Shown piece by piece: positions 10,785-21,298 of a stretch of DNA of 38,338 bases. The notes under the pieces are model-generated. The model had not been told where the DNA came from, did no database searches, and saw nothing but the letters and a program-made list of their open reading frames with translations. A program made the position numbers and the translations under genes. Within the stretch, counting starts at the first letter, position 1. Every line of letters starts with the position of its first letter. The stretch covers positions 1-38,338 of the forward strand of contig DASTZC010000113.1 of the NCBI GenBank assembly GCA_035764505.1, in the 5' to 3' direction. The stretch is from Candidatus Polarisedimenticolia bacterium (GTDB taxonomy: Bacteria > Acidobacteriota > Polarisedimenticolia > Gp22-AA2 > AA152).

Positions 10785-11666
10785 TCACGCCCCGACCCAG
10801 CCGGCGACGAGATGTCCGACGTCGGCCAGCGCGCCGTTGCGCTCTTTCTCGGGTGCGGCGGCTTCGGCCAGGTAAGCAGCGACGAGGAATGGTTTCTGTG
10901 GCGCCGGCCATACGATTGCAACGTCGTTGGTCGCGCCGTTCGCGCCCGTGCCGGTCTTGTCGCCGACGCGCCAGTGTCCGGGAAGTCCCGCGCGCAGCTT
11001 CGCGGCACCCGTCGTGCTGCCTACCAGATACCCGATCAGGCGCTTGCGTGAAGCTTGTGAGAGCTCGGAGCCCAGCAGCAGGCTTCTCAGGTTGGCCACC
11101 ATCGCCGCGGGCGTCGTCGTGTCCCGGGGATCCCCCGCCACGGCGCTGTTGAGCTCCGGCTCGATGCGATCGAGCCGTGTCACCGAATCGCCCAGGCCTC
11201 GCAGATAGGCGGTGAAGCCGCCCGGCCCGCCCACCGAGCTCAGCAGCAGGTTCGCCGCCGTGTTGTCGCTCACCTCGATGGCGGCTTCGCAAAGCTCGGA
11301 AACGCTCATGAAACCTTCCCCCAGACGGGCACGGGTGGTCGGCGCATGCTCGAGCAGGTCCTTCGCATCGTACGCGACGCGCCGTTCGAGGCGTTCCTCG
11401 CCGCGATCCACGCGCGACAGGACTTGGGCCACCAGCAGCCATTTGAAGGTGCTGCACATCGGGAAGCGCTCGTCGGGGCGGTGGACGAGCCGGCGGCCGG
11501 TGTCCACTTCGAGGGTCGCCACGCCCAGCCGCCCGCCGGCTCGCGCCTCGATTTCGTCGAGGCTCTGCGCCGCCTTCCGCGCTCCGTCGCCTGGTGCGGA
11601 CGAGCGGATGGCCAGGGGCCAGGCTAGGCCCGCCAGCGACCCGAGAATGAAGTCACGCCGCTGCAT
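10785..11666 (-). CDS. Class A beta-lactamase, Tat-exported
   Basis: A 293-residue serine beta-lactamase. All active-site motifs are intact: STFK (S72, K75; Ambler 70-73), SDN (133-135; Ambler 130-132), omega-loop RIEPELN (E169; Ambler E166) and KTG (237-239; Ambler 234-236). Cys at 71 (Ambler 69) has no partner at Ambler 238, which is Gly, so the carbapenemase-type disulfide is absent. The N-terminus MQRRDFILGSLAGLAW is a twin-arginine signal, fitting export of a folded protein. It starts 8 bp after the stop of a Cache-protein gene, so expression depends on the upstream promoter. No ampR- or blaI-like regulator is adjacent. Substrate range cannot be predicted; an intrinsic chromosomal enzyme is more likely than an acquired one, since no IS or integron is next to it. 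Confidence 0.94.
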   Translation of the reverse strand: MQRRDFILGSLAGLAWPLAIRSSAPGDGARKAAQSLDEIEARAGGRLGVATLEVDTGRRLVHRPDERFPMCSTFKWLLVAQVLSRVDRGEERLERRVAYDAKDLLEHAPTTRARLGEGFMSVSELCEAAIEVSDNTAANLLLSSVGGPGGFTAYLRGLGDSVTRLDRIEPELNSAVAGDPRDTTTPAAMVANLRSLLLGSELSQASRKRLIGYLVGSTTGAAKLRAGLPGHWRVGDKTGTGANGATNDVAIVWPAPQKPFLVAAYLAEAAAPEKERNGALADVGHLVAGWVGA

Positions 11667-14325: not shown

Positions 14326-14706
14326 TCAGGCGGTTTTCGCTGTAAAGCGTGCGCCTTGGCCGCGCAGGATCCTTCCCATCGGCCGGCCCTTGGCCAGTTC
14401 ATCCACCAGCTTGTCCATATATCGGATGTTGCGCATGAGCGGGTCTTCGATCTCCTCGATGCGAACCCCGCAGATAACGCCGGTGATCTTGCTTGCGTTG
14501 GGATGGAGCGCCGGCGCATCGCGGAAGAAGGTCTCCAGATCGCTGCGCCGTTTGATCTGCTCTGCCAGGGTGTGCTGGCTGTAGCCCGTCAGCCAGCAGA
14601 TGACCTCGTCTACTTCCTTTTTCTTGCGCCCCTTGTTCTCCACTTTCTGGACATAGAGGGGATACACGCTCGCAAATGACATCTTGAAGACACGGTGCTT
14701 ATCCAT
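14326..14706 (-). CDS. DUF2200 family protein
   Basis: A 126-residue cytoplasmic protein beginning [21 protein letters not shown] and containing WLTGYSQ and [19 protein letters not shown], the hallmarks of DUF2200. No function is known for the family. The start is the ATG at 14706, where the family begins; a longer frame to 14772 adds residues unlike the family. GAGGA lies just upstream. First in a row of small minus-strand genes of accessory type. Confidence 0.9.
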
Positions 14707-14781
14707 GGGTCCTCGGAGCAAGAACGATCGATCACTGCCGCCGCGTACGCCTGGCGTGTTGCCGTTCAGCACCGGCTGTCT

Positions 14782-15829: not shown

Positions 15830-16918
15830 CTAGCGGGCCAGCGCCTTGCCCGCCTGGCGGCAGCATTCGCCGCGCGGGATCGGCTTGCCGTGCGGGCAGA
15901 GCTTCGGATGGCCCAGGAAGGTGCAGATCGAATCGGTCATGGCGGGGGAGAGGATGTGCTCGAAAACGCAAGCCTCCTCCTCCACCTGATGCTCCTGCAT
16001 CTGGAAGGTCTGGGTGAAAAGCGTCTCCGCCAGCCGCTGGCGCCGCACGAGGCTCTCGGCACGGACCAGGCCGGCGGGCGTCAGCTCCGGATCCGATGAC
16101 GGTCCCACGATGCCGCTGGCACGCAGGCGCTCGAGCAGCGGGGGCGTGGCGAGGCGGAACCCGCGCCCGCAGATCTCATGGGCCGCGGCGTCCCCCTCGT
16201 GCTTCATCCAGAGATATTCCAGAACCTCGTCGATGTCCTCCTCGCTCGCGTGCGAGGCAAATACCTCGCCGGCGATGCGCCCGTGCTCCAGGCGGATCTG
16301 GCGGTCGGCGAGGCCGCCGACCGTCGGATCGTGGGTGACCATCACCAGCGTCTGCCCCGCCGCGTGGATGCGCTGGAAAAGCTCCAGTACCGCCTGCTGG
16401 TTCTCGGCGTCCAGGGAGCCGGTGGGTTCGTCGGCCAGCACCAGCTGCGGGCGGTTGATCAGGGCGCGGGCAATCCCGACCCGCTGCTTCTCGCCTCCCG
16501 ACAGCTGCGCGGGAAGGTGCTCGAGCCGGTGGCCCAAGCCGACCTGCTCGAGGGCTTGCCTCGCCTCCGTCTCGTCGGCTTGGCTATGGAGATATTGCGC
16601 CAGCATCACGTTCTCGACGGCGGTCAGATAGGGGATGAGGTGGTATTGCTGGAATACCAGCCCGACCGACTCGCGGCGGTAGCGAATGCGCTCTCTCCGC
16701 GGCAGGGAGGAGAGGTCGACCCCGCCCACCAGGATGTGTCCCTCGTCGGGAGCGTCGAGCCCGCCGAGCAGGTTCAGCATCGTCGTCTTGCCCGACCCGG
16801 AGGGGCCCATCACGGCGACCCACTCTCCGGCGGCGATATCGAGGCTCACCCGGTCCAGAGCGGTCACCTGGCGGTCGTAGCGCCGCGTCACGTTCTGCAG
16901 ACTGACGAAGCTCATCAT
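15830..16918 (-). CDS. ABC transporter ATPase fused to a DtxR/MntR-like metal-sensor domain
   Basis: A 362-residue protein in one open frame. Residues 1-222 are a MacB/LolD-type ATPase: Walker A GPSGSGKTT (38-46), Q90, signature LSGGE (139-143), Walker B with E164, and H196. Residues 226-362 align along DtxR/MntR: a degenerate helix-turn-helix region (about 228-283), then RLAE (295-298), EACVFEH (315-321) and LGHPKLCPHGKPIP (335-348), the last being a DtxR-family hallmark. By alignment to DtxR, primary-site ligands C102/E105/H106 are kept (C317, E320, H321) and Met10 falls at D230. Ancillary-site H79 is Gln (Q294) and H98 is Glu (E313), while E83 is kept (E298). The HTH part is about 5 residues shorter than in DtxR. 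It overlaps the permease gene by 4 bp (ATGA) and is last in the iron operon. The likely role is to energise the two permeases, with metal sensing by the tail (inference). Confidence 0.9.
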   Translation of the reverse strand: MMSFVSLQNVTRRYDRQVTALDRVSLDIAAGEWVAVMGPSGSGKTTMLNLLGGLDAPDEGHILVGGVDLSSLPRRERIRYRRESVGLVFQQYHLIPYLTAVENVMLAQYLHSQADETEARQALEQVGLGHRLEHLPAQLSGGEKQRVGIARALINRPQLVLADEPTGSLDAENQQAVLELFQRIHAAGQTLVMVTHDPTVGGLADRQIRLEHGRIAGEVFASHASEEDIDEVLEYLWMKHEGDAAAHEICGRGFRLATPPLLERLRASGIVGPSSDPELTPAGLVRAESLVRRQRLAETLFTQTFQMQEHQVEEEACVFEHILSPAMTDSICTFLGHPKLCPHGKPIPRGECCRQAGKALAR

Positions 16919-18087
16919 TCTCCCCGCAGCGCGTCGGCGGGCCGGACCGCGAGGGCCCGGCGCAGCGGCGCCAGGACGGCAATCCAGCCGAGCGCCAGCG
17001 AGACGCCCAGCACCGCCGGCAGAACCTCCCAGCGCAGCGTCACCGCCGCGTCGAAGAGGCGCTGCCCCAGCAGGCGCGCCAGGACCCCGCCGACGAGCGT
17101 ACCCGACAAGGCTCCAATCAGGCTCAGGATCGTCGCCTCCCCGAGGAACATCGCCAGGATCTCCCCGTCGCCGGCCCCCAGCGATCGCATCAAGCCAATC
17201 TCGGGCTCCCGCTCCAGCACCGAGGAAAGCAGCGTCGTCATCACGCACAGGGCGCACAGCACCAGCACCACCAGCGAGAGCGACAACGACAGGCGGTGCA
17301 GCTTCGCCAGGAGCGCTCCCTGGCCCTCGGCCACCTGCCACAAGACGCGCGCCTGCGCGCCGGGGAGCTCCTTTTCGAGAAGCCGCGCCGCGCGCGTCAC
17401 CTCGGCGGAGCCGCCCGAGATGGTGAAGGAAGCGAGGGAGACGCGCCCCGCGGCACCGATCTTCTCCTGAAGCGAGGACAGCGGCAGGAAGATCTGCTCT
17501 TCTTCCGATTCTCCGGTGGCCAGCACGCCGCTGACGTGGCAGGAAAGCTCATGGTCTCCCAGGTGAATCACCAGAGACGAGCCCCGAGGCGATGAGATCC
17601 GCTCGGCAAGCGCCGATCCGACGACGCACTCGGTCGCCGTATTCGGCCATGCCCCCTCGATCTTCCAGCCCGCGTTGAGGCGCGGCAGCGCGGGAAACTC
17701 CGCTCCCGTGACGGTGGCGCCGTGCCAGGCGCCCTCGGTGCCTGCCGGTCGGACTCCTCCGGAGGCCAGCAGGAGAAGCGCGGGCGGCGGCTCGACGGCA
17801 ATTCCGGCGCGCGCGAGTCGCGCCGCGGCGCCCCGCAGCGCCGCTTCATCGAGGATTGCCCCTTCGGTCCCGAGCGGCGGCGTCACCAGCATGTTGGGCC
17901 CGAATCCCCTGACATCCTGCGACATCTTGCGCCGCACGTCGGCGTCGAGCGCCAGAAGCGTCGCCGTGAGCGTGGCGGCCGAGGCAATCGCCACGATGGC
18001 CATCAGAAAGTTGCCGCGGCGCAGCGCCAGGGAGCGCAGCAGGAAGCGCATCGCCACCCCGGCGTTGCGTCCCGGCCGGCGCAGCAT
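16915..18087 (-). CDS. FtsX/MacB-type ABC permease (second of two)
   Basis: About 390 residues: one N-terminal membrane helix (NFLMAIVAIASAATLTATLLAL), a large extracytoplasmic domain, then three C-terminal helices (LSLSLVVLVLCALCVMTTLLSSV, ILAMFLGEATILSLIGALSGTLVGG and VLPAVLGVSLALGWIAVLAPLRRA). The motif EREPEIGLMRSLGAGDGEI is typical of FtsX-like permeases. The external domain starts DADVRRKMSQDVRGFGPNMLVTP, parallel to the neighbouring permease (SQELKRFGANLVLLP), so the two are paralogues. I chose the ATG at 18087, 1 bp after the previous stop; GTG at 18099 and ATG at 18051 are alternatives. By position it corresponds to one of the Campylobacter Cj1661/Cj1662 type permeases of the p19 iron system. 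Confidence 0.87.
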   Translation of the reverse strand: MLRRPGRNAGVAMRFLLRSLALRRGNFLMAIVAIASAATLTATLLALDADVRRKMSQDVRGFGPNMLVTPPLGTEGAILDEAALRGAAARLARAGIAVEPPPALLLLASGGVRPAGTEGAWHGATVTGAEFPALPRLNAGWKIEGAWPNTATECVVGSALAERISSPRGSSLVIHLGDHELSCHVSGVLATGESEEEQIFLPLSSLQEKIGAAGRVSLASFTISGGSAEVTRAARLLEKELPGAQARVLWQVAEGQGALLAKLHRLSLSLSLVVLVLCALCVMTTLLSSVLEREPEIGLMRSLGAGDGEILAMFLGEATILSLIGALSGTLVGGVLARLLGQRLFDAAVTLRWEVLPAVLGVSLALGWIAVLAPLRRALAVRPADALRGE

Positions 18088-18088
18088 C

Positions 18089-19387
18089 CTAGAGGCCACG
18101 CAGCATCTCGAACGGGTGCAATTGGAGCAGCCGGCGCGCCGGGATCACGCATCCCAGAAACGCCATGGCCAGCGCGGCCGCCACCGCCAACGGCACGGCG
18201 AGCGGCGGAATGGCCACCGGGCTGCCGAACAGCGCGAGGGAGATCCAGCGAGCCAGCCAGGCGCCGGCGAGCGCCCCGAAGAGTCCGCCGGCGATTCCCA
18301 GGATTCCGGCCTCGGCCGCAAGCAGGCCGATGACCGAAGCGTTTCCCGCTCCCAGCGCCTTGAGCAGGCCAAACTCGGCGCGTCGCTCCAGCACCGCGGC
18401 CGTCAGGGCGCTGGTCACCGCCAGCGTGGCCCCCAATCCGGCCATCAGCGCCAGCAGAAGCAGGAGCGCGGAGACGCGCTGCAGGATGCGCCCTTCCGAT
18501 TCCGCCACGCGCCGCACGATCCGCGCACGCGACCCGGGGACCGAGCGCTCCAGCTCATAGGCGATCGATGAGACGAAGGGAGTACAGGACCAGCGCTCGA
18601 ACTCGCTGGGCGGAATCTTCCGGGGGTCGCTCCCCAGACGCGCATAGAAGGCGTTCTCCGGGGTGGTCAGGGCGCTCACCGCGATGCGCGTAATCTTGCC
18701 GCTCGTCCCGGCGGCTTTCCAGGCCGTTTCCAGAGTCACCAGGATGGCGTCTTCCTCCTCGCCCCCGCCGCGCAGCAGCCCGACCACCTGGAGCGGCAAG
18801 TCGCCCCCCTCGGCACGCACGCCAAGGCGGGATCCCACCTCCACTCCCAGGGCCGCTGCCAGCCGGACACCCACCAGCGCGGGCGGCGGGTCGACGGAAA
18901 CGGCTTCCGGATCGAGGTCCTCGATCCAGCGCCCTTTCACGCTCCAGGCGGGATTCAGGCTGCGGATTCCGGTGACGAAGCGCTCCCCGGAGGGAAGGTC
19001 GAAACGCCGCTCGAACCAGGTCCCCCACAGGGCGGCCGTGCGCCCCTCAGCGTGCACCCGCGCCTCGAAAACCGGCGCAAAGGCCAGGATGTTGTTCTTC
19101 CAGAAATTGTCTTTGACCTTCGCAAGGCCGGCGGCGTCGAGATAAGAGGGCATCCGCCAGGCGCCCATCTCCTCGCCGGCCACCTTCACCTCGCCGCCAC
19201 CCTCGGCGGGGAGCAGGACGAGATTGGCCCCGAAGCGCTTCAGCTCCTGGCTCATCTTGTCGCCGATGTCCATGGCGATGTCGGCCAGCGCCGCGGCCGC
19301 GGCGGTCCCCAGCGTCACGGCCGCCAGGACAACCAGCTTGCGCCGCTTCTGCCGGAAGAGGGAATCACCCAGGATGCGCAGGAGCAT
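18089..19387 (-). CDS. FtsX/MacB-type ABC permease (first of two)
   Basis: A 432-residue permease with an N-terminal helix (KLVVLAAVTLGTAAAAALADIAM), an external domain of about 250 residues and three C-terminal helices; LERRAEFGLLKALGAGNASVI is the FtsX coupling motif. I chose ATG 19387 because GAGGG lies 7 bases upstream; an in-frame TTG at 19399 also exists. The gap to the FTR1 stop is 8 bp. The external domain has a run of charged residues but no obvious iron-binding His or Met cluster. With the second permease it likely forms a heterodimer driven by the ATPase-DtxR protein. Substrate is uncertain: it may move a ligand or reductant, or an electron-transfer partner, not iron itself. Confidence 0.87.
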   Translation of the reverse strand: MLLRILGDSLFRQKRRKLVVLAAVTLGTAAAAALADIAMDIGDKMSQELKRFGANLVLLPAEGGGEVKVAGEEMGAWRMPSYLDAAGLAKVKDNFWKNNILAFAPVFEARVHAEGRTAALWGTWFERRFDLPSGERFVTGIRSLNPAWSVKGRWIEDLDPEAVSVDPPPALVGVRLAAALGVEVGSRLGVRAEGGDLPLQVVGLLRGGGEEEDAILVTLETAWKAAGTSGKITRIAVSALTTPENAFYARLGSDPRKIPPSEFERWSCTPFVSSIAYELERSVPGSRARIVRRVAESEGRILQRVSALLLLLALMAGLGATLAVTSALTAAVLERRAEFGLLKALGAGNASVIGLLAAEAGILGIAGGLFGALAGAWLARWISLALFGSPVAIPPLAVPLAVAAALAMAFLGCVIPARRLLQLHPFEMLRGL

Positions 19388-19395
19388 TGTTACCC

Positions 19396-20694
19396 TCAAT
19401 TCACCGGCGGCGCGCCGGCCGCCGCGGGAGCCGCGCGGAAGGCGTTCACCATGGTGCGCAGATCGGCGAGGCGCAGCACCAGATCGCCTCCTTCATCACG
19501 GTAGGGGAGCGGCACCGGGTTGCAGCCGCCTGCCGTTCCGAGGGTCTCGCGATTGATGTCGGCGGCGCAGGCGAGACAGACGAGCCGCCCCTTGATCTCC
19601 ACGTAGCCGGATGCCCCGCAGACCTGACAGGCGTCGAAGGCGGGAACCGGCTTGCCGTGCGACTGCATGACGAAGAAGCGCACCACCACGCCGTCGATCG
19701 ACACGCCGAAGCGATGCAGGTGCCCGTCCCCCAGCCCGGAGGTGGACAGGCGGACTTCGTCCTGCGACTCCGGTGTCAGCAGCGCCGGCGGATCGATTCC
19801 TTTCGGCAGCCGCGAATAGGCGTAGGACACGGTCAGCGAGGCGATGATGAGCGTCCCCGCCGTCGCCAGCAGCCGCCTCCAGAGGCTGTCGCGCCGCAGC
19901 CTGGCCAGGGCCAGGCGGCGCTGCGGTCCTTCCAGCTTCTGGGCGTCGCTGCGCCGGCGCCGATCTTCGCGGCCCGGCACCAGCATCACGATGAGCGGCA
20001 GCGCCAGCAGCGACACGACCACCAGCACGTCGTTCTTGACGATCGGGCCGATGAGGCGCATCTCGCGCCGCCCCACCGGCAGGCTCCCCAGCTCGCCGAA
20101 TTCGTGCAGGCCGCCGATCAGGAGCTGGGCCCCCAACAGGAGCAGGACGATCTCGGTCACCTTGAAGAAGCGCGCCAGATCGACCCGGATGCTGCCGCGG
20201 ACGAAGGCGACACCGAACAGCGTGGCGAGTGCGAGTCCGACGGCGCCCCCCAGGTAGGCGAGCAGCGAATCGGAGGTCAGCTTCACCGCCCCCAGGAACA
20301 GGACCGTCTCCACTCCCTCGCGCAGGATCAGCAGGAAGGTCAGGCCGAACAGTCCCGCGGCGATCGTCCCGGAGTCCTTGTGCGCCATGGCCTCCAGCCG
20401 TCCCTCGATCTCGCCGCGCATCCCCTTGCCGGTGCGCCACATCCAGATCACCATCGTGATCACGAAGAACGAGCCCAGCACCATCAGCCAGCCTTCGTAG
20501 GCCTCCTCCGCGATCCCCAGTCGCACGAAGACGGCGGCGGCGATCAGGCTCGCCGCGATGCCGGCCCCCAGGCCCCAGTAGACGGCGCGTCCCAGAATCT
20601 CGCGTCCGGTGCGCTTGAGATACGCGAGGATAATCCCCACCACGAGGGCGGCTTCCACGCCTTCCCGGAGGGTCACGACCAGGGCTTCGAACAT
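19396..20694 (-). CDS. FTR1 iron permease fused to DUF2318
   Basis: A 432-residue protein. Residues 1-240 are an FTR1/EfeU-type high-affinity iron permease with seven helices and both iron-ligating REGVE motifs (10-14 and 125-129), plus HEFGELG (197-203). A basic linker (241-272) leads to another helix (about 276-292) and a DUF2318 domain (about 310-432) with CQVCG (356-360), CLAC (373-376) and GGCNPVPL (389-396), giving five conserved cysteines likely to hold a metal or Fe-S centre. In Campylobacter the FTR1 and DUF2318 parts are separate genes (Cj1658 and Cj1660). The gene starts 2 bp after the fur stop, so iron control by Fur is likely. It imports ferric or ferrous iron across the inner membrane, presumably with the downstream ABC genes. 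Confidence 0.92.
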   Translation of the reverse strand: MFEALVVTLREGVEAALVVGIILAYLKRTGREILGRAVYWGLGAGIAASLIAAAVFVRLGIAEEAYEGWLMVLGSFFVITMVIWMWRTGKGMRGEIEGRLEAMAHKDSGTIAAGLFGLTFLLILREGVETVLFLGAVKLTSDSLLAYLGGAVGLALATLFGVAFVRGSIRVDLARFFKVTEIVLLLLGAQLLIGGLHEFGELGSLPVGRREMRLIGPIVKNDVLVVVSLLALPLIVMLVPGREDRRRRSDAQKLEGPQRRLALARLRRDSLWRRLLATAGTLIIASLTVSYAYSRLPKGIDPPALLTPESQDEVRLSTSGLGDGHLHRFGVSIDGVVVRFFVMQSHGKPVPAFDACQVCGASGYVEIKGRLVCLACAADINRETLGTAGGCNPVPLPYRDEGGDLVLRLADLRTMVNAFRAAPAAAGAPPVN

Positions 20695-20696
20695 CT

Positions 20697-21158
20697 TCAG
20701 GAGACTGCGGGCTGTCCGGATGACGACCGGGAAGAGCGGGCGCAGGCGGAGCAGCGGCCGCGGAGCTGGTGGGTGTGCTCGATCAGCTGGAACCGGCGCC
20801 GGCGGCAGATGGCCGCCACCAGCCGCTCGATCTGGCGGTTCTCGAACTCCAGGATCTTGCCGCAGCTCACGCAGACCATGTGGTCGTGGTGGTGCCTTCC
20901 CACCATCGGCTCGTAGCGCGCCTGGCCCTTCGCCATGTCGATGCGGTGCACCAGCCCCGCCTCCACAAGGCGCGCCAGGGTGCGGTACAGCGTCGCCGGG
21001 GCCACCTCGCGCCCGCGGCGGCGGAAATGGGCCAGCAGATCGTCAGCCGTGAAGTGGCCGCGCACCGCGAGGATCTCCTCCAGGATGGCGCGGCGGGAGC
21101 GGGTCATCTTCAGGCGGTTGACGGCGAGGTAGCGCTCGAAGCGGCCGGTCGCGTCCAA
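20697..21158 (-). CDS. fur: Fur-family metal-responsive repressor
   Basis: A 153-residue Fur-type protein: an N-terminal winged helix (DNA-reading helix around APATLYRTLARLVEAGLV, 53-70) and a C-terminal dimer domain with the metal motif HHHDH (89-93) and CVSC (96-99), with another pair CSAC (136-139) for structural zinc. The metal-site His and Glu (E104/E106, H128/H130) are present. I start at TTG 21158 because GGAG lies 6 bases upstream; a TTG at 21173 would touch the operator directly. It is the first gene of the iron operon and sits beside its own predicted box, so autoregulation is likely. Fur, Zur and PerR cannot be told apart with certainty, but the iron-transport context favours Fur. 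Confidence 0.88.
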   Translation of the reverse strand: MDATGRFERYLAVNRLKMTRSRRAILEEILAVRGHFTADDLLAHFRRRGREVAPATLYRTLARLVEAGLVHRIDMAKGQARYEPMVGRHHHDHMVCVSCGKILEFENRQIERLVAAICRRRRFQLIEHTHQLRGRCSACARSSRSSSGQPAVS

Positions 21159-21175
21159 GGCTTCTCCGATCAAAG

Positions 21176-21192
21176 TTGATAATCGTTCTCAA
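21176..21192. promoter_or_regulatory. Putative Fur box
   Basis: TTGATAATCGTTCTCAA is an imperfect 17-bp palindrome that resembles the consensus Fur core TGATAATCATTATCA. It lies 17 bases upstream of the chosen fur start codon and about 106 bp before the SnoaL gene, so it could act on both directions. No binding data exist here. Confidence 0.6.
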
Positions 21193-21198
21193 TTCGGT

Positions 21199-21211
21199 CC
21201 CGATTATCGGG
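21199..21211. promoter_or_regulatory. Second palindrome, possible operator
   Basis: CCCGATTATCGGG is a 13-bp palindrome, perfect apart from its central base pair, and lies 6 bp from the Fur box. Its core GATTATC resembles a Fur half site, so it may be an extension of the operator or a site for another dimeric regulator. Confidence 0.4.
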
Positions 21212-21298
21212 CGGCGCGAGGAATCCTGTCAAACCCGCCGCGCTGGCGCGCCGGGGCGTCTTGGGGATAGGCTAACCGCTCCCCGAGGAGGTGAGGCG

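Follow-up and report, generated by a model that had tools for sequence, protein, structure and literature searches.

What would a domain resembling an iron-dependent repressor do on the ATPase of an iron transporter? This question is raised by a gene in the 38,338-nucleotide stretch of Candidatus Polarisedimenticolia DNA analyzed here (the window; contig DASTZC010000113.1). A single open frame on the minus strand, running from 16918 to 15830, encodes a FetD-type ABC ATPase of 362 amino acids with a C-terminal DtxR-like domain. An earlier note, made from the sequence alone, had placed one uninterrupted frame with a full ABC ATPase at 15830–16918, and this was correct: the ABC motifs are intact, and the Pfam search returned ABC_tran at residues 21–166 (E 1e-36) and Fe_dep_repr_C at residues 280–349 (E 1e-24), both well above the cut-off. 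The ATPase half covers residues 1 to about 216/217 (16271–16918, minus strand), as judged by Foldseek and by identity to an E. coli plasmid ATPase. The DtxR-like tail spans about residues 226–353 (15860–16243, minus strand) and comprises, according to Pfam, AlphaFold, and Foldseek, helix 1, a decayed winged helix, and a metal-binding/dimerisation region. The open-licence papers searched contained no description of an ABC ATPase with a DtxR-type domain, which is weak evidence of absence.

The ATPase gene is the last of an operon with the order fur–FTR1/FtrD–FtsX–FtsX–ATPase, in which the gaps are short or the genes overlap. On the minus strand, fur (20697–21173; Pfam FUR, E 1e-30) comes first, followed by an FTR1 iron permease fused to an FtrD-like (DUF2318) Fe-S domain (19396–20694; Pfam FTR1 and FtrD-like), a FetB-like FtsX/MacB-type permease 1 (18089–19399; Pfam FtsX, with MacB_PCD slightly under the cut-off), and a FetC-like FtsX/MacB-type permease 2 (16915–18099; Pfam FtsX and MacB_PCD). 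The operon is a FetM/FetABCD-type iron-uptake system with a MacB/FetD-type ATPase, and the components by which such a system is recognized (FTR1, FtrD/DUF2318, two FtsX permeases, and the ATPase) all lie within it. The FetMP-FetABCDEF systems of C. jejuni and E. coli plasmids likewise have an FTR1 permease, a DUF2318/FtrD domain, two FtsX-type permeases, and the ATPase in this order. The window differs from them in carrying FTR1 and FtrD in one chain, in having no P19/FetP gene between FTR1 and the permeases, and in the extra DtxR-like tail, which the E. coli plasmid ATPase does not possess. In C. jejuni, every fetABCD gene is required for low-iron growth (PMC10783030), and the role of FetBCD within FetMP-FetABCDEF has been described as unclear (PMC10783030; PMC6083913).

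Upstream of fur, the minus strand carries a sigma-70-type promoter, TTGACA-18-GATAAT (21203–21232; 11/12 consensus matches), and a Fur box, TGAGAACGATTATCA (21177–21191), which agrees with the 7-1-7 consensus at 12/14 positions, a score matched by none of 500 shuffles. Fur boxes scoring 13/14 were found at the equivalent place in loci L009 and L010. In L011, L012, L014, L019, L023, and L041, the classical Fur box of these three loci is replaced by 7-1-7 palindromes upstream of fur/ftr1 (e.g. TGAGACTGAGTTTCA, TGAAACTAAGTTTCA, and TGCAACTTAGTTGCA), several of which are at shuffle level against the Fur consensus. Elsewhere in the window, the minus strand encodes a Beta-lactamase-family protein (10785–11666; PF13354, E 1e-42) and a DUF2200 protein (14326–14772; E 8e-53).

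The earlier note had allowed that a sequencing error might have joined two genes, and had asked for the same fusion in related genomes. Relatives of the query were sought in one genome per species, and 540 were found; the best 80 were inspected, and all of them, at 80 independent genome loci, encode the fusion. The order FTR1, permease, permease, ATPase-tail is kept in these loci wherever the contig reaches far enough. An artefact of sequencing or assembly merging two genes is thus ruled out by the recurrence of an identical fusion, and we regard its probability as practically nil. The fusion loci come mostly from Acidobacteriota metagenome-assembled genomes, and others are labelled Planctomycetota, Elusimicrobiota, and Chlamydiota; searches within these three phyla returned further fusions, although most source genomes are metagenome-assembled and a phylum label here and there may be wrong. 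In a sample of 149 Acidobacteriota genomes, an FtrD-like gene was present in 25 and 11 fusions were found, each sharing a contig with an FtrD-like gene only a few kb away (11/11). When plasmids were searched with the tail, no fusion was annotated among the matches listed, whose annotations were metal-dependent regulators.

The fold of the two halves was then considered. AlphaFold prediction of the full-length protein from the family alignment gave a pLDDT of 92 and a pTM of 0.68, with the placement of the domains relative to each other loosely fixed. Foldseek with the full-length model returned the ATPase half only, with the E. coli MacB ABC domain and MJ0796 as the best matches of the N-terminal half; the tail was therefore folded separately, again from the family alignment (pLDDT 94.3, pTM 0.87). 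The predicted tail matched IdeR/DtxR best (probability 1.00, TM about 0.70), and a profile search of PDB sequences placed DtxR/IdeR proteins on top (E about 1e-23) with MntR weak. The PF02742 metal-binding/dimerisation domain was detected in the window protein (E 1e-24) and in 57/57 members of the family. These predictions confirm that the tail has a DtxR/IdeR fold, as the earlier note had proposed for a DtxR-like half in the same chain. The tail shares with the DtxR/IdeR/MntR repressors their fold, the C/E/H primary ligands, and the dimerisation region, and differs from them in its decayed helix-turn-helix (HTH), its fusion to an ATPase, its extra invariant cysteines, and the lack of an SH3/FeoA domain.

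The candidate metal ligands were counted over 81 fusions. The CPHGKPIP motif (residues 341–348) and the primary ligands C317, E320, and H321 (15956–15970, minus strand), both named previously, are present in the window protein; C317 is found in 79/81 fusions, E320 in 80/81, and H321 in 79/81, and the three occur jointly in 79/81. The ancillary ligands had been described as changed, which holds for the window copy, where Q294 and E313 replace DtxR H79 and H98, but Q294 is atypical of the family, in which 74/81 fusions have H at this position. Owing to this Q, the second site of the window copy may differ from that of its relatives. Further candidate ligands are E231, E234, and E298, together with the subfamily-specific C332, C341, C352, and C353: E298 is present in 81/81 fusions, E234 in 71/81, and E or H at position 231 in 74/81. 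From the alignments and the known structures of these repressors, we take positions 231 and 234 to be those of DtxR M10/R13 and MntR D8/E11.

Toward its end the tail contains a Cys/His region, C332...H337...C341-x-H343...C352-C353 (15860–15925, minus strand), whose six residues are invariant in the 81 fusions. H343, and in part H337, are common to canonical DtxRs too, whereas the cysteines are distinctive: C332, C352, and C353 are present in 39/39 stand-alone relatives of the tail, canonical DtxRs mostly have other residues at these positions, and, among the residues listed for 21 canonical DtxRs, no cysteine occurs at 352 or 353. The invariant cysteines could form an Fe-S or zinc site, and both the sensing of iron and control of the ATPase might lie with such a site, built from C332, C341, C352, and C353 with H337/H343, instead of with the classical DtxR site. 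We consider this unlikely, though worth keeping in mind: the cysteines are invariant in the fusions, nearly so in the feoB-linked relatives, and mostly missing from canonical DtxRs, but the classical ligands are equally kept and the cysteines may instead be a structural zinc site.

The HTH/wing (residues 242–278; 16085–16195, minus strand) is the part of the tail that has decayed. The earlier note had called this region shorter, and it is indeed about three columns shorter than the HTH of canonical DtxRs. PF01325, the N-terminal DNA-binding HTH, matched none of 57 fusions and was likewise missing from the window protein, whereas the positive controls, canonical L111 and L113, both matched; among seven feoB-type proteins scanned, there was one sub-threshold match. 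At matched divergence (41–43% mean identity), the mean column information of canonical DtxRs was 2.21 bits in the HTH, against 1.49 for the fusions and 1.16 for the feoB-type proteins; the respective values for the metal/dimer region were 2.63, 2.93, and 2.63 bits. From these sequence comparisons we infer that DNA binding has been lost. The window's genome contains only one other DtxR-type match, a canonical one at L113:2291-3001 (C118), beside an Nramp + universal stress protein gene.

These data bear on the two functions offered by the earlier note, namely direct gating by metal and a transporter-tethered repressor. In the second, the tail would still bind DNA from its place at the membrane and would repress its own operon when metal-bound, which would fit the DtxR-type fold, the dimerisation region, and the predicted winged-helix remnant. 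Against it, the HTH is shortened, lacks a Pfam match in 57/57 members, and is the least conserved part of the tail, and it is decayed in the closest non-fused relatives as well. Moreover, the operon has a fur gene and a Fur box of its own and so would have no need of another iron repressor. The tethered repressor is disfavoured, being the least likely of the readings set beside the Fe-S/zinc site and a structural or chaperone role, and we judge it very improbable; direct gating is the better of the two options, as far as can be inferred.

The closest non-fused proteins, of about 210–240 amino acids, combine the same DtxR-like domain with a FeoA domain. In most acidobacterial loci inspected they adjoin a gene whose product contains the GNPNxGK motif of FeoB, and the neighbour in L104 is FeoB by Pfam. 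Stand-alone CPHGxxIPxGxCC proteins with a FeoA domain (about 215 amino acids) are encoded at L091:4734-5378, L092:5066-5713, L102:5033-5764, and L104:5374-6006, among others. They share with the fused tail the CPHGxxIPxGxCC subfamily, the decayed HTH, and an adjoining iron-transporter gene, and differ from it in being separate chains of about 215 amino acids, in their FeoA domain, and in lying beside a GTPase-type Fe2+ transporter; they may be regulators of Feo. In a tree of the tails, sorted as fused or stand-alone by the presence of a P-loop, fusions and feoB-type proteins grouped together, separate from canonical DtxRs (SH-aLRT 99), with few switches between the two states and many inner forks without resolution. 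Judged by sequence, the CPHGxxIPxGxCC subfamily is widespread and is found both fused to the ATPase and as a feoB-linked stand-alone protein, so that the finding is broader than the one odd ATPase first noticed. Because the stand-alone proteins of the same subfamily lie mostly beside feoB and carry a FeoA domain, the sensor module appears to follow iron transporters.

Natural relatives without the tail were also found. In one acidobacterial genus (L155, L157, and L160–L163), the same operon encodes an ATPase that lacks it, and in the ATPase tree, which has long outgroup branches and serves as a guide only, these tail-less ATPases nest inside the tailed clade (branch support 98), which fits a single loss of the tail. 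The ATPase of the E. coli plasmid FTR1/DUF2318 operon (231 amino acids) also has no tail and is 59% identical to the window ATPase. Given this apparent loss in one lineage, the tail would be dispensable for the system. The persistence of the operon where the tail is absent would suit a structural, targeting, or metal-chaperone role with no switch, for example taking over Fe2+ after import or making the head dimer more stable. We think this improbable, given that the ligands and the overall DtxR sensor architecture have been retained, which stability alone would not need.

Sequence, predicted fold, the conserved ligands, and the iron-uptake operon around the gene strongly support a built-in domain of the DtxR-like metal-sensor type. 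We consider it reasonably probable that this DtxR-derived metal-binding/dimerisation domain at the C-terminus of the FetD-type ATPase acts as an iron gate at the level of the protein. Beneath the two FtsX-type permeases would lie two copies of the ATPase, with their tails paired in the manner of DtxR dimers. Cytosolic Fe2+ would occupy the C317/E320/H321 site (with E231/E234/E298), the metal-filled pair would change shape, and the ATPase heads would be locked inactive, which would halt iron import quickly, in addition to the slower repression of the operon by Fur. Fe2+ as the metal, the geometry of the tail dimer, the gating of the ATPase, and its inhibitory direction are all presumed here, and control could as well be activating. 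If FetBCD does not itself move iron, the gate could act on an energising step.

MetN and ModC are the models for the allosteric gate, which is our best reading of the repressor-derived domain. In the importers MetNI and ModABC, ligand binds to C-terminal domains that pair across the ATPase heads, and this inhibits the transporter (PMC10710835). Like MetN (with its C2 domain) and ModC, which carry a ligand-binding domain at the C-terminus of an ABC importer ATPase, the window ATPase has a candidate domain of this kind at its C-terminus. It differs from them in its MacB/FtsX-type permeases and in the type of the domain, which is a putative metal-sensing regulator of the DtxR family. A wider proposal, which we put forward tentatively and with some doubt, is that a DtxR-derived subfamily of iron sensors left DNA and became a portable gate for iron transporters, fused on the Fet ATPase and, next to FeoB, acting as a partner that carries a FeoA domain; iron might be sensed at the added cysteine (Fe-S) site.

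In many soil bacteria, the ATPase that drives an iron importer bears a tail descended from an iron-sensing gene switch whose DNA-reading part was lost; through this tail, the amount of iron in the cell may control transport directly. The tail-less relatives in the Acidobacteriota genus and on the E. coli plasmid provide ready-made comparisons, and the fusion offers a handle on the function and regulation of FetBCD. Together, the findings suggest that a classic transcriptional iron sensor was recruited to regulate iron import on the protein itself, which links the otherwise unrelated Fet and Feo systems.
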